The translations under genes were made by a program, and so were the position numbers. The notes under the pieces are model-generated. The model had not been told where the DNA came from, ran no database searches, and saw only the letters and a program-made list of their open reading frames with translations. DNA of 57,881 bases from Planctomycetaceae bacterium (GTDB taxonomy: Bacteria; Planctomycetota; Planctomycetia; Planctomycetales; Planctomycetaceae), in NCBI GenBank assembly GCA_019636285.1, contig JAHBXV010000039.1:1-57881 (forward strand), in the 5' to 3' direction. Positions 3,582 to 36,425 of this stretch are shown here, in pieces (the first letter of the stretch is position 1; every line of letters begins with the position of its first letter).

Positions 3582-6203
3582 TCAATCGTGACGAGGCTGC
3601 AACAGCGGGGTCTGCCGGGCGGACTGGGCGGCGGCGGCGGCCTGAACCTGGGCTCGAACCAGCGGGTACAATTCATCGGCGGTCACATGCAGATCGCGAT
3701 CGGCATCGGCGGCGCCTTGGAATCCTCGGGCGACGGCCAGCCCGAAGAGGCCCGCGCGGGTCTTGGGATCGACGAGGCTGGTTTCGTCGTCGCCGCAGGC
3801 CAGCAGCACGCTAGCTTTGCGGAAGGGCGGGTCGAGCTTGGCCAGAACCTCGCGTCCCGAAACCTGCCGACGGGCGTCTCGTCCGCGAATGTTCGGTGTA
3901 ATGTCCAACAGCACCAGTTGATCGTTCGAGGGCGAGTCGTTCAGGTGCCGAGCAAGTTCCGCGAGTGCCAGTCCGGTGCGGGCCGGGTTTTCCAGGTCGA
4001 AATCGCGCGGCGCGAGATAGACCTGTCCCTGGTCGTCGGAGTAGGCATGACCGGAAATGCTGATCACGATCTGCGTGCCGGGGTTCGCATTGGCGCAGAC
4101 ATCTTTGATTTCGGTTTGCCACTGGGCAAGGGAGGCGTCGAGCAGCATGCGGCCGCGCCGTTCGGAGATGGCATAACGCTTGGTCATGGCGGCGAAAATC
4201 GCGCGGGCATCCTCGATGGCCGAGGGGACCGGCGACAGGGACGAATCCTGGTAGGACTGCGTCCCGAGCACGAGCGCCCAGCGATCGGTCTGCGGCGGCC
4301 GCCGCGCGTCGATCGTCGTGGCCCGCAGAACATCTCCTTCGCGGCGATAGGCGATGCGAACCTGGTCGAAACGCCGCAGATCCACCGGTTGGATCGGCTC
4401 AAGCGAGAGCGTCAATTCGGCCGCGTCGTCGATAACAATCTTCCGCAACTCCCCGCTGGCGAGCGAGACGGAAATGGTGTTGGCCGAATCGTCGAGCGCT
4501 GCGATTACGCCATCGAGATTCTCCTGCCGCGTGGCAGCCACTTCGTGCAGTTCGGTGTCGTGCCGAGCCGAGATCCGATCTCCGGGCTTCAAGTCGGCGA
4601 CCCCGCCGCTCGTGGGAGTCCCGTTAATGGTCACTTTGCAGTCGGCGGCCGCTGGCAGCTTGATGAGCGAGACGTTGGCCGACTGGCTCAGTTCGATCGC
4701 CAGCTCTCCGGTAGCGGGCAGAAAAGCCTGCACGTAGCCGACCAGCGTCACGGGGCGCTTCGCCGACAGCGTTTCGACGATGCGTCCTTTGCGGCCGTTT
4801 GGCTCGGCGAGATGGGTCAACTCGACGACGTCGCCGGTTTGCAGGTCGCGCAGGGGAACAGACTGGCGATTGAGCCGTAACTCGACCGATTCCGGAACGC
4901 GCAGCGGCAGGTCGTCACGCAGGTTTCCATCGGTCAACCCGACCACCAGTCGTTTTTCAGCAAGTTCCAGACTGCGCACGATGCCCGTATTGGAGACCGG
5001 ACGATCGGCGATAATTCCATGCACTTGCGTCGGGTCGGTGGCGTCGAGTTCGATCACCACATGGTCGCCCGGCTGAAGCTCCCGGAGCAGAATGTTTTCC
5101 TTCCGATTCAGCAGATAGATGTTCTGCCGGCGCCCGAGGCCGAGTTCTTCGAGCGCCCCCGTATCGACATCGCGGACCACGAGGCGGTTAGTTTCGGGGA
5201 GAACTTCGCGAACAATGCCGAGCGACTTCTTGCCAGCGGCCGTCGCTGTCTGTTTTGGAGTGCTTGGCCAGAACAGGATGGCCGCACTCATGAGGAGCGA
5301 CACCCCCAGCGCGCCGCCGGCAATCCAGAGTCGCCGGGGATCGGAACCGGGTTGAGTGGGCTCTTCGGCTCCGCCCACCAGCTTCAGGTCGACATTCAGA
5401 TCCGAAAGGGCCTCATCCGCGGTACGGTATCGCTTCGCCGGGTCTTTCGCGGTCAACCGGCCGATGGCCTTCTGCAGATCGTCCGGAACATCCTTGAGCA
5501 CGCGGGAGATTTCGGGAAGCTGCCGGTCGGCTGCGGCGTGCCACATCATCCACGCCATCTGCGGATTGCGACCGAAGGCATTGAGGCCCGGAAACAATTC
5601 GTCGAACCGGTTGCCGCACATCAGCTCGTAGGCGCTGAACCCCAGCGAGTAGAGGTCGCTTTGCGGTCCGACATCGCCGAAATCGTCCGAGACGACCTCC
5701 GGGGCCATGTACTTGGTTGAGCCTTTAATCAGACTCCCCGATTCGTCGCTGGCTCGCCGCGCCAGGCCAAAGTCTCCCAGTTTGACCCGCTTTCGCTGGT
5801 CGAGCATCAGGTTGCCGGGTTTCACGTCCCCGTGGATGATTCCCTGTGCGTGCAGGTACTTGAGGGCACGCAGACCGTGAACCAGCATGGCGCGCAACGC
5901 CCGGAGATCCATGGGTCGACCCTGCATGCGGTCGGCAAGGTTCCCCGTCATCAATTCCATCACCAGCCAGCCCTTTTCGCGAACGATGTCATAGATCGTC
6001 ACGATGTTGGGGTGGTGCAGCGATGCCAGAAGCTGCGCTTCCTGCCAATACCGCGCGAGCCGCCGCGGGTCGGCGAGGTATTCGTCGTGCAACTGCTTGA
6101 TGGCGACTTCGCGACCCAGTTCTTTATCGCGAGCGCGATAGACCGCGGCAAAGCTCCCCGAACCGAGTTTTTCGAGAAGTTCGTAACGGTTGCTGGAAGA
6201 CAC
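3582..6203 (-). CDS. Ser/Thr kinase - four beta-repeats - caspase-like pseudoenzyme fusion
   Basis: 873 residues from a GTG at 6203 with GAGG upstream; a TTG at 6239 would add 12 residues. Domains: kinase (about 6-270; glycine loop GSGSFAAVY, Lys36 in VAIK, HGDVKPGN with catalytic Asp126, DFG Asp144, APE), one membrane helix (about 293-313), four tandem beta-rich modules of 70-85 residues (about 328-637), and a caspase-fold domain (about 640-873). The caspase part has the ALVLGTQSY strand, SGHA with His719, and LLDITPN where LDxC is expected, so the catalytic Cys is Thr769. The kinase looks active but non-RD (HGD for HRD); the protease site looks dead. The FHA gene lies just upstream on the same strand. 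This suggests a membrane-anchored signalling protein whose caspase fold acts as a binding domain. Confidence 0.85.
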   Translation of the reverse strand: MSSSNRYELLEKLGSGSFAAVYRARDKELGREVAIKQLHDEYLADPRRLARYWQEAQLLASLHHPNIVTIYDIVREKGWLVMELMTGNLADRMQGRPMDLRALRAMLVHGLRALKYLHAQGIIHGDVKPGNLMLDQRKRVKLGDFGLARRASDESGSLIKGSTKYMAPEVVSDDFGDVGPQSDLYSLGFSAYELMCGNRFDELFPGLNAFGRNPQMAWMMWHAAADRQLPEISRVLKDVPDDLQKAIGRLTAKDPAKRYRTADEALSDLNVDLKLVGGAEEPTQPGSDPRRLWIAGGALGVSLLMSAAILFWPSTPKQTATAAGKKSLGIVREVLPETNRLVVRDVDTGALEELGLGRRQNIYLLNRKENILLRELQPGDHVVIELDATDPTQVHGIIADRPVSNTGIVRSLELAEKRLVVGLTDGNLRDDLPLRVPESVELRLNRQSVPLRDLQTGDVVELTHLAEPNGRKGRIVETLSAKRPVTLVGYVQAFLPATGELAIELSQSANVSLIKLPAAADCKVTINGTPTSGGVADLKPGDRISARHDTELHEVAATRQENLDGVIAALDDSANTISVSLASGELRKIVIDDAAELTLSLEPIQPVDLRRFDQVRIAYRREGDVLRATTIDARRPPQTDRWALVLGTQSYQDSSLSPVPSAIEDARAIFAAMTKRYAISERRGRMLLDASLAQWQTEIKDVCANANPGTQIVISISGHAYSDDQGQVYLAPRDFDLENPARTGLALAELARHLNDSPSNDQLVLLDITPNIRGRDARRQVSGREVLAKLDPPFRKASVLLACGDDETSLVDPKTRAGLFGLAVARGFQGAADADRDLHVTADELYPLVRAQVQAAAAAQSARQTPLLQPRHD

Positions 6204-6281
6204 GGCGGCCTCGAAGTGTCGGAGATCAAGAGGGTGCAAACTCAGTGATGGGAGCTAGTGCTTAATCATGGCTGTATCTTC

Positions 6282-6359
6282 GTGTGCCATTGGCTCTGCC
6301 AGTGCGCCTTGAATTGAGTGCCTCTAATAAAGAGGCACTGGCGAAGCCAGTGACACACG
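6282..6359. repeat. REPIN, family 1 copy A
   Basis: Two inverted arms, GTGTGCCATTGGC...GCCAGTGC and GCACTGGC...GCCAGTGACACAC, flank a spacer of about 28 nt. Each arm is itself a hairpin. The spacer holds a further perfect hairpin (AGTGCCTCT / AGAGGCACT around TAATAA). It starts 32 nt past the stop of the FHA gene, between two co-directional genes. Confidence 0.85.
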
Positions 6360-6391
6360 ATCGAGAAACCGTGACAAAGCATGGATCGCAT

Positions 6392-7318
6392 TCACTCCAG
6401 CAGGGTGGCGAGCAGTTTTCGCAGCCGTTCGTCGTCTTCGACATGCCCGGTCAATCCGGTGAATCGATTGAGATCTTCGGAGTTCAGCATTTTGAGCACG
6501 CGCTGGTAGGCGGCCCGCTCGGCTTTGCGGTCGCCGCGCGAGTGGGCGAGCCCCGCCTCCCGCAGGACTCGCTGCCACGGCTTGAGTTCCTTGCCCGGTT
6601 CGCCCAGGAAGTCGCGAAAGACGGTGGCCCGGGCATCCGACACCGTCGATGCAGAGACCGTTGTTCCATCGGATTCAAGGACCAACAGCAGCAGCGATGA
6701 CAGTACGCTGAATCCGAGAACTCCATACAGAACGGCCGGATTTCCCTGTTTTTTCGCGGCACCCCGCATGCGGGCGACGGTACGGTCCTGCTCGGCAAGT
6801 TGCAGATTCGGCAGATGTCCGTCTTCGCCCAGCCGGACCAGTGTTTCGCCGCTGCCTTCGGTAATGAACTTCGCGGTCTGCCGGGTTGCCTTACGGCTTT
6901 TCCCGCCAGCCGGCGCGGCCTTGGCGCGAATCCGCTGAAAATCGTCGACGGTCGATTTCCCGGGATCGATCGGGGCATCGCTCGGCTTGGGGACGGCAGC
7001 CGCGGCGGCTGACGAGAAGTGTAGCCGCACCGACGGGGAAACCGCGAGTACCGCTTGCGAGGGCAGCCAGACCCATTGATTACCGGGGACGGGTTGGCCG
7101 TCCATCACCAGGAGGTTGTCGTCCGGAGCGTGAATGGCATAGCGGCCGCCGCGCTGCACGATGGTCGCGTGCAAATCCAGAATGGCGGCATCGTCGATGA
7201 CCAGATTGCAATCGGCGTTTCGTCCAATGGTCAGCACGTCGCCGTCAAATGCCGTCACCTGCCCGCGACCGGGACCGGTGGCGATGGTGATCTGGGCGGC
7301 GGCTGTTGCTGATGCCAT
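6392..7318 (-). CDS. FHA-domain membrane protein
   Basis: 308 residues. An N-terminal forkhead-associated domain (about 8-105) shows LTIGRNADCNLVIDD with Arg33 and His50 in DLHATI. A basic linker follows (about 125-150), then one membrane helix (about 198-216, VLYGVLGFSVLSSLLLLVL) and a C-terminal helical segment of about 90 residues. FHA domains bind phosphothreonine peptides. Here the conserved Ser three residues before the His is Leu47 and the next Arg is Asp48, so phosphate contacts may be weakened. The gene precedes the kinase/caspase-like gene on the same strand, with only a repeat element between, so the two are probably co-expressed and may interact at the membrane. Confidence 0.82.
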   Translation of the reverse strand: MASATAAAQITIATGPGRGQVTAFDGDVLTIGRNADCNLVIDDAAILDLHATIVQRGGRYAIHAPDDNLLVMDGQPVPGNQWVWLPSQAVLAVSPSVRLHFSSAAAAAVPKPSDAPIDPGKSTVDDFQRIRAKAAPAGGKSRKATRQTAKFITEGSGETLVRLGEDGHLPNLQLAEQDRTVARMRGAAKKQGNPAVLYGVLGFSVLSSLLLLVLESDGTTVSASTVSDARATVFRDFLGEPGKELKPWQRVLREAGLAHSRGDRKAERAAYQRVLKMLNSEDLNRFTGLTGHVEDDERLRKLLATLLE

Positions 7319-7568
7319 GGATGGTTTGCCAGCGCGATGTCAAAACGTCTTATTTGGGAAGCGGTCTCGGGCAAGCGGAATCGGCCCCGGCGGACGAATC
7401 CGTTTATTCTGGCGGAGACATCAGGAATTGACCATGATGAAAAACTGATCGGTTTGCGGGACGGGAAAGATTCCTCCGGCCTCCGTCGTGGTGCCGCCAA
7501 GAATTCCGACCTTCGCCGCAGCCGATTCTTCGACGCTGCCTCTGAGTTGGATCAACGGGACGGACAGT

Positions 7569-10500
7569 ATGGCAATTCGCGACTGGTGCCTGGGATCGCT
7601 GGTTCTTGTGCTGGGAGGGATGGGATCTGTTGTTGCCACGGCCGCGGAACCCTTGCGTTACAACCGCGATATCCGGCCGATTCTTGCGGAAAACTGTTTC
7701 GCCTGCCACGGGCCCGATTCAGCCGCCCGCCAGGCGGAATTGCGGCTGGATCGCTTCGATGACGCGGTGACCGACCGTGGCGGATCGGCGGCGATCGTCC
7801 CCGAGCAGCCCGCGAAGTCGTCGGTGATGGAACGCGTGCATGCGACGGATCCCGATCTGGTCATGCCGCCCCCGTCCACGAAGAAAACGCTCACCGCCGA
7901 ACAGATCGCCAAGCTGGAACGCTGGATCGCGGAAGGGGCTCAGTACGAGCCGCACTGGTCGTTCATCCCTCCGGTTCGCCCGCAGCCGCCGGAAGTGAAG
8001 CAGATGGGCTGGGTCCGAAACCCCATCGACCAGTTCGTTCTCGCGAGGCTGGAGCAGATGGGGCTCGAACCGGCCCCCGAAGCCGATCGTCGTTCGTTGG
8101 CCCGTCGTGCGAGTCTTGACCTGACCGGCTTGCCGCCGGAACCCGCTGCTATCGATGCCTTCGTGAACGATGGCGAACCGGGAGCGTACGAGCGGTACGT
8201 CGATCGCCTGCTCGACTCCATCCACTGGGGCGAACATCGCGGCCGGTACTGGCTGGACGCCGCTCGCTACGCCGACACGCACGGTATTCACTTCGACAAT
8301 TACCGCGAATTCTGGGCGTACCGGGACTGGGTGATTCAGGCGTTTAACAGCAACATGCCCTTCGACCAGTTCACCATCGAGCAGCTTGCCGGCGACCTGC
8401 TTCCGGCAGCGACGCTCGAGCAGCAGATTGCCTCTGGATTTAACCGCAGCCACATCACCACGAACGAAGGGGGCATCATCGACGAGGAGTATCTCGTCCT
8501 GTATACCCGCGACCGGACCGAGACGATGTCGACGGTCTGGATGGGGCTGACCGCGAACTGTGCCGTCTGCCATGACCACAAGTTCGACCCCTTGAGCCAG
8601 CGCGAGTTCTATTCGCTGGCGGCGTTTTTCAACAACTCGAACGTGCCGGCCCGCGACGGCAACATTAAAGATCCGCCCCCCATCGCGGCGGTCCCGCGGC
8701 CCGAAGACCGCGATCGCTGGGCGGCGCTGCAGGTGGCGATTCCCCAGGCCCAGCAACGGGTGGCGGAACGCAAGGCAGCCGCACGCTCGGAATTCGACGG
8801 CTGGCTGGCTTCAGCAACGCCCGGAGTCTTCGAAGAACGGATTCCGCGATCGGGAATGGAGCTGCATATCCCGTTTCAAGAGGCGGAAGGCGCGGCGAAC
8901 ATCACGGTTGATGGTACGGCGCGGTCGCTGACTCTGGCGGAAGGAACCACTCGCGAGCCAGGCGCATTGGCTAGCCCCGCCGTGGTGCTGAATGGGGCTG
9001 CTGTCGCGGAAATTTCGGATGTCGGCGATTTTGAAGGCGATCAGCCGTTTACTCTGGCGGCATGGATCAAACTGTCGGCCAACGATGGCGTCGGCGCGAT
9101 CGCCGCACGGATGGACAATTCGGCTGAATTTCGCGGCTGGGACTTCTGGGTTGAAGGTCGGCGGATTGGGATGCACCTCATCAACCGCTGGAGCGATGAC
9201 GCTTTGAAAGTTGTGTCGCGATCGCAGGTGAAGGCCAACGAGTGGACCCACGTGGTCGTTACCTACGATGGCTCGCGTAAGGCGGCGGGCGTGAAGGTCT
9301 ACTTCGAGGGTCAGCCTCAGCCGACCAACACGCAGGCGGACACGCTCAAGAGCACGACACGGACCACCGTCCCCCTGAAGATCGGCTCACGACACACGGC
9401 GAACCCGCTCGCTGGCGCGGCCGTGCAGGATCTCCGCATTTATGAGCGAGCACTCCCGCCGCCGGATGCCGCGAACCTGGCGGGGGCCACGCGCCGTGCG
9501 GCGGTGATCGCCAAGTCCGCCGATCAGCGGACCGATGCCGAGAAGAACGACCTCTACGACTGGTGGCTGACTTCGCTCGACACCGAGTATCAAAATCGTG
9601 CGGCTGCTTTGGCCGGGCTGGAGCGCGAGCAGGCCGACATCAAATCGCGCGGGACTGTCGCTCACGTGATGACCGAGCGGACCGAACCGGCGATGGCCTT
9701 TATCCTCTCGCGCGGGGAGTACGATCGACGTCAGGACCAGGTCAGCGCGGCGACCCCGGCGGTCTTGCCGCACTGGGATGAGCAATTGCCGCGCAATCGC
9801 CTGGGCCTCGCGCAATGGCTGCTGCGGGCCGATCATCCGCTGACGGCGCGGGTCACCGTCAATCGCTTCTGGCAGGAAGTCTTCGGGACGGGCCTCGTGC
9901 GCACGGCCGGGGACTTTGGCATCACCGGCGAATTGCCGTCGCACCCGGAACTGCTTGATTGGCTGGCGGTCGAGTTCCGGGAATCGGGCTGGGACGTGAA
10001 GAAGTTCTTCAAGCTGCTGGTCACTTCGGCCACTTACAGCCAGGCCAGCACGCTGACACCGGAGAAACTGGCGGCTGATCCCGCGAACACGTGGCTGTCG
10101 CGCGGGCCGCGGTTCCGGATGGATGCCGAGATGGTTCGTGACCTCGCGTTGGCATCAAGCGGATTGCTGGTTCGCAAGATTGGCGGGCCCAGCGTGAAGC
10201 CCTACCAGCCCGATGGCGTGTGGGAAGCGGTCGCCATGGATGTCAGCAACACTCGCGAGTACCGCCGCGATTCGGGCGAGAACCTATATCGACGGAGCAT
10301 GTATACCTTCTGGAAGCGTTCCGCGCCGCCAGCGTCGATGGACATCTTCAACGCACCGTCCCGCGAAACGTGCAGCGTTCGCCGCGAGCGGACCAACACG
10401 CCGCTGCAGGCGCTGGTCACGCTGAACGATACGCAGTTTGTCGAAGCGGCTCGTGTGCTGGCGGAGCGGGTGCTGGCGGACGCAGCGCTGGACGATACCG

Positions 10501-10742
10501 GGCGAATGAACGCAATGGCGGCCCGCATTCTTTCTCGACCGCTCGACGAAGCCGAGGTGGCCGTCGTGCGGTCGACTGTCGATGATTTGAGACAGTACTA
10601 TGCCGCTCACCCGGAAGATGCCGACGCGCTGACGAGCGTGGGCGACATGCCGCGGCAGGGGATGGCGCCGGCCGGTGAACTCGCGGCGTGGACGATGATC
10701 GCGAATGAGCTGTTCAATATGGACGAAGCCCTGGTGAAGTAA
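7569..10742 (+). CDS. Planctomycete cytochrome c, PSCyt1-DUF1549-LamG-DUF1553
   Basis: 1057 residues from the ATG at 7569, which gives a good signal peptide ([19 protein letters not shown]); codons upstream to 7488 look non-coding. Residues 28-120 are the PSCyt1 domain with CFACHG (Cys43, Cys46, His47). The DUF1549 domain follows ([13 protein letters not shown], then ARYADTHG) with a second Cxx[10 protein letters not shown]. The middle (about 480-640) is a LamG-like jelly roll (FTLAAWIKL, then [10 protein letters not shown]), and the C-terminal third is DUF1553 ([20 protein letters not shown]). These proteins are abundant and periplasmic in planctomycetes; their reaction is not established. 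Usually a DUF1501 gene follows; here a TadC-like gene does. Confidence 0.92.
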
Positions 10743-10771
10743 GCAAACGTGAAGTGAGCGAAAGGGTCGGG

Positions 10772-11716
10772 ATGTTCCCGCTGGTCGCGCAACAGGTTTC
10801 CACGGGCTTCGATCCGATGGCCGTTCTGGCATCGGGGCTGGTGGCGCTGTCCGTCTATCTGTTCGTGGTTGTGATCGCGAACACACTGGCCAGCGAAGAC
10901 CCGACCCAGGACGACGAATGGCGGTATGACGTCGGGCGCATCAACGAGTTGCGCCGCATCAGTCCGTTCTACCGCATGCTCCAACCGGCAATTCAGGCGC
11001 TGGCCCGGTTTAATCGCGGAGCGTTTCAGAATCAGCTTCCCGATATCGGTCGGGAGATTCAGGCGGCCGGGCTGCCGCGGGTTTGGACGCCGGAAGAGTA
11101 CCTCGCGCGGATTGAACTGATTTCGATTTTTCTGCTGCCAGCCTACGTCTACTTCATGACGCAAATGATGGGGCCGGCCGGAATCGTGCTGGCCGTGGTC
11201 CTCAGCGGAATTACCGGGGTCATGCTGCGTCGACAGCTCGCCGCGAGGGCGCGGCATCGGCTGGTTCTCATCAAGCGGCGGATGCCGTTTCTGCTCGACC
11301 TCGTCACGTTGCTCATGGAAGCCGGTTCGACATTTCTACAGGCGCTGCAGAAGGCGGTTTCGGAGTATCGGACGCATCCCGTGGGGGTGGAGTTTGGCCG
11401 GGTGCTGGCGGAACTCAACATGGGGAAGGGCCGCATTCAGGCGCTCGAAGCCATGCGCGACCGACTGCACGATGACGAAATCACATCGATCGTCGGTTCG
11501 ATCATTCAGGGCGAACAACTCGGTACGCCGCTCGCCCGTATTTTCCGAACGCAGGCCGATGTCCTCCGCCTGAAGCGCAGCCAGCGGGCGGAGCGCATGT
11601 CGGGCGAGGCGGCGGTCAAAATGCTGCTGCCAGCCGTCCTCATCATGGCGGCCACCGTCATCATCATTCTCGGACCGTTCCTGCTGAACTTTATCTATTC
11701 GGAATGGATGGTTTAA
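10772..11716 (+). CDS. TadC-like type II secretion system F-family membrane protein
   Basis: 314 residues from the ATG at 10772, chosen for AAAGGG just upstream; a GTG at 10754 would add six residues. One N-terminal membrane helix (about 10-35), two central ones (about 110-150) and one at the C-terminus (about 285-308) surround the T2SSF domain (RRMPFLLDLVTLLMEAG, then QGEQLGTPLARIFRTQAD). In Tad pili and type II secretion this inner-membrane platform works with an ATPase and pilins. None is encoded here, so the protein is an orphan or works with a distant locus. It starts 29 bp after the cytochrome gene and the M48 protease gene follows. Confidence 0.88.
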   Translation: MFPLVAQQVSTGFDPMAVLASGLVALSVYLFVVVIANTLASEDPTQDDEWRYDVGRINELRRISPFYRMLQPAIQALARFNRGAFQNQLPDIGREIQAAGLPRVWTPEEYLARIELISIFLLPAYVYFMTQMMGPAGIVLAVVLSGITGVMLRRQLAARARHRLVLIKRRMPFLLDLVTLLMEAGSTFLQALQKAVSEYRTHPVGVEFGRVLAELNMGKGRIQALEAMRDRLHDDEITSIVGSIIQGEQLGTPLARIFRTQADVLRLKRSQRAERMSGEAAVKMLLPAVLIMAATVIIILGPFLLNFIYSEWMV

Positions 11717-17363: not shown

Positions 17364-17441
17364 GTGTGCCACTGGCTTTGCCAGTGCGTCTTAAGTCTCT
17401 TATTGACAAAAAGATGCACTGGCTAAGCCAGTGGCACACAC
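17364..17441. repeat. REPIN, family 1 copy C
   Basis: Arms GTGTGCCACTGGC...GCCAGTGC and GCACTGGC...GCCAGTGGCACAC point at each other across about 30 nt. Outside them, TGTTCTATCA on the left and TTGACAGAGCACT on the right continue the symmetry, giving an element of roughly 120 bp. It sits between convergent genes, 23 nt after the left stop. Confidence 0.88.
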
Positions 17442-23575: not shown

Positions 23576-23688
23576 CCTCAAGCGGCGTGAATTGCAGTTT
23601 CGTTGTCGATTCAATCGCGTGAGGCGCGCCAGACGTGGTTGTCGCATGAACCTTCAGCCTGCAATGATGCGGCTTGGAGAATGCGCTC

Positions 23689-26600
23689 ATGTCTGAACAA
23701 ATGCTTCCATCCGGCGAGTCTGCCAATTCGCCCCAGCGGCGGGTCAACCCCGAGTCGATCGAAGGGCTGTTTCTGGAAGCCCTGGAGATCACCTCAGCGG
23801 CCGAACGGGTGGCGTTTCTGGATCGCGTGTCCGAGGGTGATCCGGTGCGCCGTCGCCGTTTGGAAGCGCTGCTGCGGGCCTACGACGATTCGGGAAGCTT
23901 TCTGGAGCATTCGCCGGTTGCAGCGGCTGAAGAGAATTTCGATTTTCTCACGCCGAGCGACAAGCCGGGAACGCTGGGGCTTCTGGGCCACTACGAAGTG
24001 ATTGACGTGATCGGCCGCGGCGGTATGGGGGTGGTCTTCCGGGCTTTGGACCCCAGGCTGAATCGCGTGGTGGCGATCAAGGTGCTCGCGCCAGAACTGG
24101 CGGCAAGTCCATTGGCCCGCCGCCGTTTCCTGCGAGAAGCCCAGGCGGCGGCAGCCGTCAGCCATCCGCATGTGGTCACCATACATGCGGTCGATGAGCA
24201 GAAGCTGCCGTACCTGGTGATGGAGTGCATTGTCGGCCAGTCGTTGCAACAGAAGATCGACAACGTGGGACCGCTGCGCCTGACCGAGATCTTGCGCATC
24301 GGCCATCAGATCGCCGAGGGGCTGGCGGCCGCCCATCGGCAGGGGCTCATTCACCGCGACATCAAGCCGGGGAATGTGCTGCTGGAGAACGGCGTCGAGC
24401 GGGTGAAGATCACGGATTTTGGCCTCGCTCGCGCGGCCGATGACGCGGCGATTACGCGGACCGGCGAAGTGTCGGGGACGCCGCAGTACATGTCGCCGGA
24501 ACAGGCAAAGGGCGAACGGGTCGACGCACGCAGCGATCTCTTCAGCCTGGGCTGCGTGATGTATGCGATGTGTACCGGACGTTCGCCATTCCGGGCCGAC
24601 AGCATGGCCGCCGCGATCCGTCGCGTATGCGATGACGCACCGAGACCAATCGGGGAGATCAATCCCGAAGTTCCGGGCTGGCTGATCGAGATTATCGGGA
24701 TTCTGTTGGAAAAGAAGCCGGAGAATCGCTTTCAAACGGCCGAGGAAGTTGGCACGGCGCTGGCGGCCTGTCTGGAGCGCATGCAGCGGCAGGGAGCGAT
24801 CCGGACGACACAAATTCCGCTGCCTCCACGTCCGGCGACGGCTAGCGAGGAAACGATTCCGCAGCCGCTGGCGGAGAAAGATTTCACGGATCGCTCGACG
24901 ACCGCGTATGACGATTTCTTCGATCGCGGCAAGACTCCGGTTGCCGGGTTGGCGACGTTCTTGGGCGGTTTGATGACGGCACTCATAGTGGGTTTCTGCG
25001 GCGCGATGTCTCAGGCGATGCAGCTGACGACGAATGGATTCTCGTCCACGGTGGAAGTTGTCGCCTTCATTATGTTCATCTTCTTTGTGACGTCGGCCGT
25101 CGGGGTCGGTCTACGGACCGATTTCACGAAGCGGGGAGACGGGGGGCTTCCGATCTCGCCCTCGCTGATTCTGGCGACCATCGCCACGTGGATCGTCGCG
25201 GTCTGGATGGGTTTTCTTGCTGCCATTCAACTTTGCGAAGCGCATGGCCTCTCGGCCATTGATGCCGCAGGCTTTCCCCTGAACGCGGCCTTGTTGCTCT
25301 CCACGATTCTGATTGTCGTGCTGACGTTGGGGACAAGCTGGTTCTGGGTCAGGGCGGGCATGGCGGCCAATCCCGATCCGCTCGCGGTCGATGCCAGACG
25401 CGCCGGCCGATTTCTGGTGGGTTTCGCGTTCTTCTCCTGGGCATCGCTCGTCACCTGGTGGACGGCGGTCGCGATTGGCGTGGCACAGCCGGTTCCTCTC
25501 GGCTCGCTCACTGAGCTGATGCCGGTTATCGGTGTCGAAATCGTGGCGATCGGCGCTATCCAATTGACGGTGGGACTCGTCCTGCAACGGCGACTCTTCG
25601 GACTGAAGACTTATCTTCAGTTGGGCAGCAGCGCCTTACTGGCAGGATTCGCGGGGGTCATGGTCTTGGCGGGCTTGGCGGTGCTGATGTTCCTGATGCC
25701 CTTCATCGCCTCCGTGGCAGTTAACAGTCATCAGTCTGAAACGTTCTTTTCCGGAAGGATCGGTTCGATCGGCGCGCTCGAAGCAATCGTCCTGTTGTTG
25801 GTGACTCTGGTCATGGCCAGTGCGGTCGCCGCCATCTGGAGAGTCTTGAGTCCGCCGCGCGGCTCTGTTCCGCCGCCGATACGCCGGAACACCGGGTGGC
25901 TCCGGCTGACCGTCATCGTCGCGATTGTGCTGTTTTTGATCCCCACTATCTTCGTCGTGACGGCTGCCGTTTCACATGACAACCGGCTCGCGGCGGCTCG
26001 TCGACAAGCGCTCGAGCAGCAAGCCCGAATGACCCGGCAGCAGGAGATCGCGCTCCAAAACCATGTCGTACCGCAAGTCGTCCATGTTGTGCCCGACGAA
26101 GAGTCCAACTGGGGAGCCGTGCTGATTGACTTCGGCGATGGCGTCTCGGCTGGGCTGCCGGGCAGCATGGGGGGGATGTCTCCATACTCCGGTCGGCAAG
26201 TCGCGATTCGACTGAGACCAGCAGGTGTTCCAGTCAGCACGGACGATTCCTCCGAGGGCTCGGGCTTTGCGGGAGGAATGGGGGGTGGGGATATGATGGG
26301 GGCCGGCATGTGGCCCAGCGATGACGTTGTCTTCCGCCGTGACGGGGAGTCATTCCGCCGCAGCCATGCGATTCGCGAGTCTGGCCTTTATCGTCTGGCT
26401 CCCGGCAAATACGACGTCTGGCTGTATGACTGGGAATTCGGCTGGGTCAATCCGGCTGATACCAACGAGATGGCTCCTCAGACCCCGGTGGCTCCCCAGC
26501 GGGGCGGATCGAAGCGTTTCTGGGGAAACGCCGAAATTAAAACGGGTGAAATCGGGACCATACAGGTCCGCGAATCCGACCCGGCCGCCTTATACAAGGC

Positions 26601-27291
26601 GGTTGCCGAAACACGGCCGAAACTCGAAGCATCCGATCGGTTGCGGACGTTTCTCTGGAATACGAACAGCTACACGCTGACGGAGCGACAAGCGGCCATT
26701 GTGCAGAGGTTGCTCGTGGCGGCGACCAAGGGGCAGCCGTTCGTTGAAGAGTCTGAGTTGCTTCAGCCGCTGGAGAAACCTGGAGTCGGGCAGCTTGAAG
26801 AGAATCCACCGACGGAGGTTCCCCAACCGGTTCCGCCGGTTGAAACTCCCGCGAGTTTGCCAGCGGTCTTCAACGACGGACGTCATCCCGCGATGGCGAT
26901 CCTGCAACTGGCGAACCCTGACGAACACGAAGGTCGTCGGCTGTGGCGACTCGCCGAACCGCGCGGGTTGCCCAAGCGAGTGACTTTCGGCACAACAATG
27001 CCTCCCGGTTCCATGCCAGCCTTCTCCGATCCGCTTGCTCCTGGGATGCCGGGGATGCCGCCTGGGACAACGAAGCAAAAGCCAGGGACGAACATCGAAC
27101 ACCTGGTGATTCCGTTGGAGGGCGGCAAAAAAGCCGGTGCCGCGCCCATGCCAGCCGTTCCGGGAGGGGCAAGGTTCCCGACTGTTCCAGTCGATGCCGA
27201 TCCCCCGGGGGAGGGTGACAGCAAGAATCCCGCTGCCGCTTCCGACGCACCCGTCGATGCGCTGAAAGCCGAGAACTCTCCGTCGCCTTGA
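23689..27291 (+). CDS. Multi-pass membrane Ser/Thr protein kinase
   Basis: 1200 residues; ATG 23689 with GGAG upstream. Residues 20-75 form the N-terminal segment typical of kinases linked to ECF43-type sigma factors (ESIEGLFLEALE, then LRAYDDSGSFLE). The kinase domain (about 101-365) has GRGGMGVVF, Lys131, HRDIKPGN with Asp224, DFG Asp243 and SGTPQYMSPEQA, so it should be active. About nine membrane helices follow (roughly 405-775). The extracytoplasmic C-terminal part contains Gly/Met-rich runs (GFAGGMGGGDMMGAGM) and a Pro-rich tail. It probably senses an envelope signal and phosphorylates cytosolic targets. An exported hydrolase gene starts 89 bp later. Confidence 0.92.
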   Translation: MSEQMLPSGESANSPQRRVNPESIEGLFLEALEITSAAERVAFLDRVSEGDPVRRRRLEALLRAYDDSGSFLEHSPVAAAEENFDFLTPSDKPGTLGLLGHYEVIDVIGRGGMGVVFRALDPRLNRVVAIKVLAPELAASPLARRRFLREAQAAAAVSHPHVVTIHAVDEQKLPYLVMECIVGQSLQQKIDNVGPLRLTEILRIGHQIAEGLAAAHRQGLIHRDIKPGNVLLENGVERVKITDFGLARAADDAAITRTGEVSGTPQYMSPEQAKGERVDARSDLFSLGCVMYAMCTGRSPFRADSMAAAIRRVCDDAPRPIGEINPEVPGWLIEIIGILLEKKPENRFQTAEEVGTALAACLERMQRQGAIRTTQIPLPPRPATASEETIPQPLAEKDFTDRSTTAYDDFFDRGKTPVAGLATFLGGLMTALIVGFCGAMSQAMQLTTNGFSSTVEVVAFIMFIFFVTSAVGVGLRTDFTKRGDGGLPISPSLILATIATWIVAVWMGFLAAIQLCEAHGLSAIDAAGFPLNAALLLSTILIVVLTLGTSWFWVRAGMAANPDPLAVDARRAGRFLVGFAFFSWASLVTWWTAVAIGVAQPVPLGSLTELMPVIGVEIVAIGAIQLTVGLVLQRRLFGLKTYLQLGSSALLAGFAGVMVLAGLAVLMFLMPFIASVAVNSHQSETFFSGRIGSIGALEAIVLLLVTLVMASAVAAIWRVLSPPRGSVPPPIRRNTGWLRLTVIVAIVLFLIPTIFVVTAAVSHDNRLAAARRQALEQQARMTRQQEIALQNHVVPQVVHVVPDEESNWGAVLIDFGDGVSAGLPGSMGGMSPYSGRQVAIRLRPAGVPVSTDDSSEGSGFAGGMGGGDMMGAGMWPSDDVVFRRDGESFRRSHAIRESGLYRLAPGKYDVWLYDWEFGWVNPADTNEMAPQTPVAPQRGGSKRFWGNAEIKTGEIGTIQVRESDPAALYKAVAETRPKLEASDRLRTFLWNTNSYTLTERQAAIVQRLLVAATKGQPFVEESELLQPLEKPGVGQLEENPPTEVPQPVPPVETPASLPAVFNDGRHPAMAILQLANPDEHEGRRLWRLAEPRGLPKRVTFGTTMPPGSMPAFSDPLAPGMPGMPPGTTKQKPGTNIEHLVIPLEGGKKAGAAPMPAVPGGARFPTVPVDADPPGEGDSKNPAAASDAPVDALKAENSPSP

Positions 27292-36347: not shown

Positions 36348-36425
36348 GTGTGCCACTGGCTCCGCCAGTGCATTCTTTTGGGGGATGAAAGATCCAAGAC
36401 GCACTGGCGGAGCCAGTGGCACACG
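36348..36425. repeat. REPIN, family 1 copy D
   Basis: Arms GTGTGCCACTGGC...GCCAGTGC and GCACTGGC...GCCAGTGGCACAC with 28-30 nt between. The flanks GTGCTTTGTCA (left) and CTGACAGAACACT (right) extend the symmetry as in copy C. It begins 68 nt upstream of the apbE start and ends 22 nt from the SGNH-gene stop. Confidence 0.88.

Follow-up and report, generated by a model that had tools for sequence, protein, structure and literature searches.

A transmembrane kinase with a degenerate caspase domain and an FHA-fold partner protein are associated with Tad loci in planctomycetes

We analyzed a stretch of 57,881 nucleotides from Planctomycetaceae bacterium (GenBank assembly GCA_019636285.1, contig JAHBXV010000039.1, positions 1 to 57,881 of the forward strand), which we call the window. 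Near its start lie two adjacent minus-strand genes, one encoding a partner protein with an FHA fold and the other a Ser/Thr kinase that continues through a predicted transmembrane (TM) helix and four beta repeats into a caspase-like domain (Table 1). An earlier reading of the letters alone, here the sequence-only reading, had described this pair as a candidate signaling system. The two open reading frames (ORFs) are both present, and the domain order of the kinase protein was borne out by Pfam, by inspection by eye, and by an AlphaFold model with relatives. The observations of that reading are confirmed, and its interpretation is partly supported. Across related genomes, the kinase and the partner show a strong association with loci for Tad (type IVc) pilus or secretion machines, and the results below lead from the two proteins to that association and to a model for it.

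Table 1. Features of the kinase/partner locus and of the nearby TadC-type gene in the window
Feature	Position (nt)	Strand	Remarks
Partner gene, 308 aa	6392..7318	minus	Degenerate FHA, disordered linker, TM-like helix, helical C-terminal domain
Partner FHA domain, residues 9-102	7013..7294	minus	LDLH in place of SRxH
Partner conserved core	6395..6883	minus	Juxtamembrane motif, TM-like helix, C-terminal helices; the part common to the class
Kinase, TM, four beta repeats, pseudo-caspase gene	3582..6239	minus	885 aa from TTG; likely start GTG at 6203
Hanks-type Ser/Thr kinase domain, residues 19-278	5406..6185	minus	Non-RD (HGD); catalytic residues kept
Predicted single TM helix, about residues 304-324	5268..5330	minus	Hydrophobic stretch, by eye from sequence
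Four beta repeats, residues about 338-645	4305..5228	minus	Extracytoplasmic by inference
Pseudo-caspase domain, residues about 648-885	3585..4298	minus	Structure model and relatives
His731 (SGH)	4047..4049	minus	Catalytic-His position, kept
Thr781	3897..3899	minus	At catalytic-Cys position
EF-hand-like loop DADRDLHVTADE, residues 845-856	3672..3707	minus	Flanked by two predicted helices
TadC-type inner-membrane protein (T2SSF)	10754..11716	plus	Probable remnant of shared Tad operon

The window protein carries a Hanks-type kinase domain, with a Pkinase (PF00069) match of 1e-49, the VAIK Lys, the catalytic Asp and Asn, and DFG. Among aligned relatives, the VAIK Lys is present in 50 of the 53 sequences with a residue there, DFG in all 53, and HGDxKPxN in at least 90% of 45 kinase rows. 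The conserved N terminus of the relatives starts near the GTG codon, 12 codons past the TTG that opens the 885-aa ORF. Beyond the TM helix, we identified by eye four copies of a 'DLxxGD'-like beta repeat, and in the corresponding part of the relatives Pfam matched CusF in 10 and DUF5666 in 5 of 48 orthologous ectodomains. The window holds a second large Ser/Thr kinase gene (23674-27291, 1205 aa), and the kinase query matches 36 places in the window's genome.

Pfam found no caspase match in the window protein itself, even at an E value below 1, so the caspase identity rests on relatives and on structure. PF00656 matched 31 of the 48 orthologous ectodomains (best 5.9e-18), with the window's own not among them. 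An AlphaFold model of the ectodomain built from 48 sequences had a mean pLDDT of 92.6, and in structure comparison its residues 321-554 aligned to metacaspase-4 (Z 21.3, rmsd 2.7, 204 aligned), with further matches to MALT1 (Z 20.9) and procaspases. On this modeled structure, the domain is a caspase family C14 fold. The SGH His is kept as His731, and the motif LDITPN places Thr where DxC has Cys, as the sequence-only reading had seen; its Thr769 is our T781 because it counted from the later (GTG) start, 12 codons on. The window protein therefore lacks the His-Cys dyad of active caspases and orthocaspases and is a pseudo-orthocaspase, a p20 fold without the dyad. The domain is worn-out and probably inactive.

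We compared the two catalytic positions in 58 sequences, the window included. The Cys site holds Ser in 18, Thr in 12, Cys in 10, and other residues in 18. The catalytic His is kept in 44, and both dyad residues occur together in 8 of 58, versus 25 of 28 other caspase domains in same-family genomes (Fisher about 1e-11). That comparison set came from 20 loci chosen among the weaker matches of the ectodomain search, where 30 ORFs matched and two short ones were dropped. The domain might still be a protease that uses Cys, or Ser or Thr, as its nucleophile to cleave a Tad envelope substrate. The intact fold, the 8 sequences with His and Cys, and another 28 with His and Ser or Thr would fit such an enzyme, but the remaining 22 have no His or carry a nonnucleophile at the Cys site (Val, Gly, Ala, Pro, Asp, Asn, or Phe). 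We consider a surviving protease very improbable, given also how freely the Cys site has changed and that the domain has been lost outright twice.

The extent of this change was estimated on a quick kinase-domain tree, rooted on 13 chosen rows, in which 20 of the 65 inner branches are starred. The difference between Cys and not-Cys needs at least 8 changes on this tree, and the residue at the site needs at least 27, a count that treats domain loss as one state. Within the ten-row clade of the window, the site is Thr in 7, Pro in 2, and Ser in 1, and the His is present in all ten. A conserved, functional Cys-to-Thr substitution was rejected on these counts, and the Thr is a local state. The sequence-only reading had set homologues with an intact Cys as a point that would tell against it: such homologues exist in the wider set, but Cys never occurs in the window's clade.

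Two lineages on the tree have no caspase domain and retain the kinase and the repeats. We considered whether the roughly 650-aa relatives have a split caspase gene and rejected this, since no ORF at eight loci gave a caspase match to an E value of 10; the control for this search is weak, as 45 other loci matched but the caspase model was built from those same sequences. Where the domain is present, an EF-hand-spaced loop at the C terminus is found in 54 of the 58 kinase-fused sequences. Among 14 close pairs, dN/dS was 0.004-0.09 in the kinase; in the caspase domain it could be computed for 13 pairs and was 0.05-0.39. Several pairs, in which dS exceeded 1, give rough values. The caspase domain seems to be maintained without enzyme function, as judged from these sequence comparisons, because dN/dS is low although 11 of the 13 pairs have Cys on neither side. 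The proposal that the caspase fold serves as a nonenzymatic module thus held up, as a maintained pseudoenzyme in most relatives. Separately, three very long ORFs (1314-1764 aa) at L178:1-3987 and at L179:1-3942 and 5697-10991 have degenerate caspase domains without the Cys and are possibly another pseudo-caspase family.

The FHA fold of the partner is real, as the sequence-only reading had claimed: PF00498 matched at 6e-7, and the domain superposes on the solved DgcB FHA with a target-normalized TM-score of 0.86. An AlphaFold model of the partner (22 sequences) had a mean pLDDT of 77.8 with a low-confidence linker, and we take its helix 194-216 as the TM segment. That reading went on to propose that the kinase marks a site read by this adjacent FHA protein, with the caspase fold as a switch. 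The fold, the co-occurrence of the two genes described below, and the GR Arg, which is kept in the window partner and in 36 of 50 family partners, speak for this proposal. Taking the roles of the contact residues from established FHA-domain knowledge, however, the phosphate contacts (GR Arg plus the Ser and Arg of SRxH) are incomplete. The window partner has ILDLHA aligned against VSRRHA of GarA; among the 50 family partners, the Ser is found in 7 and the Arg of SRxH in 1, with Asp or Glu there in 43. Among 20 distinct partners from outside the window's family, 19 have CxxC-CxxC at the N terminus instead of an FHA domain (the start of the twentieth is unclear), versus 0 of 51 within it. For this count duplicates were removed; 7 of the 20 carry other-family codes, and 12 were placed by record label or tree position. 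Pfam zinc-ribbon models matched three of these N termini, only below curated cut-offs. With most Ser and Arg contacts lost and a zinc ribbon replacing the FHA outside the family, we rejected the adjacent FHA as a general phospho-reader and regard the proposal as improbable.

The part of the partner common to the class is its core. The Thr of the juxtamembrane motif (FIT) was considered as a phospho-site and dropped because several relatives have Ala, Ser, or Pro there. A 1383-aa kinase relative at L286:329-4480 also matches the partner core (1.5e-9), which may mean that this genome has the kinase fused to a partner-like core.

We determined how the genes co-occur by searching 150 same-family genomes, including that of the window, with the outer part of the kinase, the FHA partner, and the N terminus of an FHA-bearing TadA ATPase (FHA-TadA) that recurs near them. 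Presence was called at E values below 1e-15 for kinase and partner and below 1e-60 for TadA, and two contig-edge kinases were added (G030, E 4e-152, and G016, a 79-aa edge ORF). The kinase was present in 56 genomes, the partner in 51, FHA-TadA in 52, all three in 48, and none in 94; no genome had the partner or FHA-TadA without the kinase. Tests on these numbers assume that genomes are independent, an assumption that does not hold. The kinase occurs without the partner in G010, G048, G092, G093, and G110 and without FHA-TadA in G035, G089, G110, and G124 (99% complete). Genera g25 and g34 are mixed, with the full set of genes or most of it in some genomes and none of the three in others. Kinase and FHA neighbor are therefore a conserved pair, with the partner in 51 of the 56 kinase genomes.

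Neighbor clustering and Pfam showed that the recurring neighbors of kinase and partner are T2SSE plus FHA (TadA) and T2SSF (TadB/TadC), so that relatives have the TadA, TadB, and TadC genes of a Tad locus. The usual gene order is FHA-TadA, TadB, TadC, partner, kinase, where TadB and TadC were told apart by order and length. Of 49 testable loci, 33 have a TadC-type gene immediately upstream of the partner, and of 44 testable family loci, 17 have the kinase immediately downstream of it. The conserved linkage expected from the sequence-only reading thus held as near-perfect co-occurrence but only in part as direct adjacency. In other families of the class, all five genes stand in order in 10 of 13 loci, and two run off the contig. 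The operon is scattered in the window's genome, with FHA-TadA on C68, TadB on C75, and TadC in the window (C47), 3 kb from the partner on the opposite strand. CpaB-like and pilin-like neighbors had no Pfam match, and these names were therefore given by eye.

A further set of 58 labeled loci, 16 of which brought proteins new to the comparison while many others encode proteins already represented in it, carries labels such as Planctomycetaceae, Schlesneria, Planctomicrobium, Pirellulales, and Thermoguttaceae. Genomes with the partner core number 54 of 397 in the class and 12 of 392 in the phylum, where every hit belongs to this class. Absences at these two levels are weak because nine candidates per genome were scored in the rows listed. 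L233 carries a planctomycete-type module under the label 'Candidatus Nealsonbacteria' and looks like a mislabeled bin. At L244:7768-11233, some kb from the TadA of the window's genome, genes that appear TPR-like and BON-like by eye are possibly outer parts of the Tad machine.

The FHA domain of TadA aligns with those of Rv1747, GarA, and EmbR, which are kinase-linked FHA domains. In the alignment, the contact Arg is present in 32 of 32 TadA FHA domains, the Ser in 26 of 32, a Lys or Arg in 32 of 32, the His in 23 of 32, and the Asn in 32 of 33. The TadA of the window's own genome carries GRD, SKRH, and VNGC and so retains the phosphate contacts. By its residues, the FHA of the TadA ATPase would be a better candidate for the phospho-reader than the FHA of the partner.

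We favor, as reasonably probable, a model in which the kinase and the partner form a regulatory module of the planctomycete Tad pilus/secretion machine and a phosphothreonine made by the kinase is read by the TadA FHA. The partner would be a membrane adaptor with a single pass, whose gene normally lies beside that of TadC. The kinase would be a single-pass Hanks-type protein with its catalytic domain in the cytosol and an outer part of beta repeats that ends in the caspase fold, with the catalytic Cys mostly lost and the EF-hand-like loop kept. This outer part may sense a condition outside the inner membrane, such as a ligand, Ca2+, or the state of the pilus or secretin, and sensing would alter kinase activity. 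The kinase would then mark a threonine, either its own or one in a component of the machine, and the N-terminal FHA of the TadA motor ATPase would read the mark, so that the motor is gated or recruited. This division of roles, with the outer part in control of the kinase and the TadA FHA as reader of the mark, is suggested by the layout: an outer part, a TM helix, and a kinase in one protein and an FHA on the motor. The model takes its domain identities, dyad loss, Tad context, co-occurrence, and FHA contacts lost in the partner and kept in TadA from the computations above, and we infer its topology, kinase activity, phospho-site, FHA-TadA readout, and sensed signal. A more specific version, that planctomycetes gate a Tad machine by phosphorylation, with a Ca2+-binding extracytoplasmic pseudo-caspase as receptor for a dedicated transmembrane kinase and with the TadA FHA reading the phosphothreonine that this kinase makes, is possible but tentative.

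Kinase fold, FHA-TadA, and partner might instead simply dock without any phosphate, as in the type VIIb secretion system (T7SSb) with its YukC pseudokinase and YukB FHA. The two systems appear alike by analogy, each pairing a single-TM kinase-fold protein (EssB/YukC) with an FHA-fused ATPase (EssC/YukB) in a secretion machine, and passages of PMC9600267 judge YukC-YukB FHA binding in Escherichia coli to be phosphate independent. However, the T7SSb protein is described there as a pseudokinase, and the corresponding FHA residues as not conserved in T7SSb, whereas here the Lys, Asp, Asn, and DFG are kept in the kinase and the Arg, Ser, and Asn in the TadA FHA. We therefore think that a phosphate-free scaffold is unlikely, and we retain phosphothreonine readout by TadA as the preferred model.

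Several results weigh against that preferred model, and the T7SSb precedent of a pseudokinase that binds an ATPase FHA region without phosphate (PMC9600267, in part) is one of them. The kinase has HGD in place of the HRD of RD-type kinases, in the window protein and in all variants listed, and the VAIK Lys is Arg in 3 of 53 relatives. The Ser position of the TadA FHA is Gly in 3 and Ala in 3 of 32. The kinase does not adjoin the partner in 27 of 44 testable family loci, and at 16 partner loci neither the kinase nor TadC adjoins, in some cases due to a contig end. At L287, from another family, TadA, TadB, TadC, and partner are present and the kinase was not found in the stretch examined. Of the 28 other caspase domains, 19 also have the EF-hand-spaced loop, which may thus have been kept as inherited structure. 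The caspase domain has disappeared twice, so the pathway cannot depend on it everywhere. As for the HGD motif, non-RD kinases can be active.

Type VI secretion systems (T6SS) have a threonine phosphorylation pathway made up of the PpkA kinase, Fha1, and the PppA phosphatase. The likeness is that a membrane Ser/Thr kinase and an FHA protein control a secretion machine (in part from PMC8460266); the differences are that the machine is another one, that the FHA here is fused to the motor ATPase, and that the outer part consists of beta repeats and a pseudo-caspase. FHA-bearing CpaF/TadA ATPases of Tad pili have been grouped as class III (passages of PMC12019362), and the Tad-like Kil killing machine of Myxococcus has the FHA-ATPase KilF with further FHA proteins nearby (main text of PMC8460266). 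These share with the planctomycete loci a Tad-type machine with an N-terminal FHA on its motor ATPase but differ in that here a kinase with a pseudo-caspase stands in the operon. The word kinase does not occur in the main text of PMC8460266, and the FHA passages of PMC12019362 name no kinase. Pseudo-orthocaspases are bacterial caspase folds without the His-Cys dyad; as described in PMC6426788, they most commonly have His changed to Tyr and Cys to Ser, in alphaproteobacteria and cyanobacteria, and the main text of that paper does not contain 'planctomycet'. The Tyr/Ser pair was not seen here; unlike in that group, the His is usually kept, the residue at the Cys site drifts (Ser, Thr, Val, Gly, and others), and a kinase is fused to the domain.

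We found no paper on a Tad kinase or a kinase/pseudo-caspase fusion in open-access text, and our results point to a new kind of phosphorylation control of the Tad machine. A kinase that shares an operon with FHA-TadA and co-occurs with it over 150 genomes is a candidate for a class of FHA-bearing Tad motors (class III CpaF, KilF) for which the passages cited above name no kinase, and because it sits in the same operon and comes and goes with FHA-TadA, the kinase question is directly testable. If the more specific version of the model is true, a type IVc pilus would have a threonine phosphorylation switch like that of the T6SS, and a caspase would have been turned from a protease into a sensor. 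The relatives also offer a natural series of a caspase becoming a nonenzymatic domain, in which the Cys state shifts no fewer than eight times on the tree, the calcium-type loop and the fold are kept, and two lineages drop the domain.

The window also contains a REP-like palindrome, CACTGGCnnnGCCAGTG, at 6288-6352, 14497, 17370-17433, 36354-36418, 44329, and 48178. The window has 8 exact copies plus one more that differs at a single position, versus 0.02 expected with at most one mismatch, and 294 sites genome-wide, where the reversed control pattern had none. The copies are often paired about 47 bp apart, and the gap between the partner and kinase genes contains one such pair.

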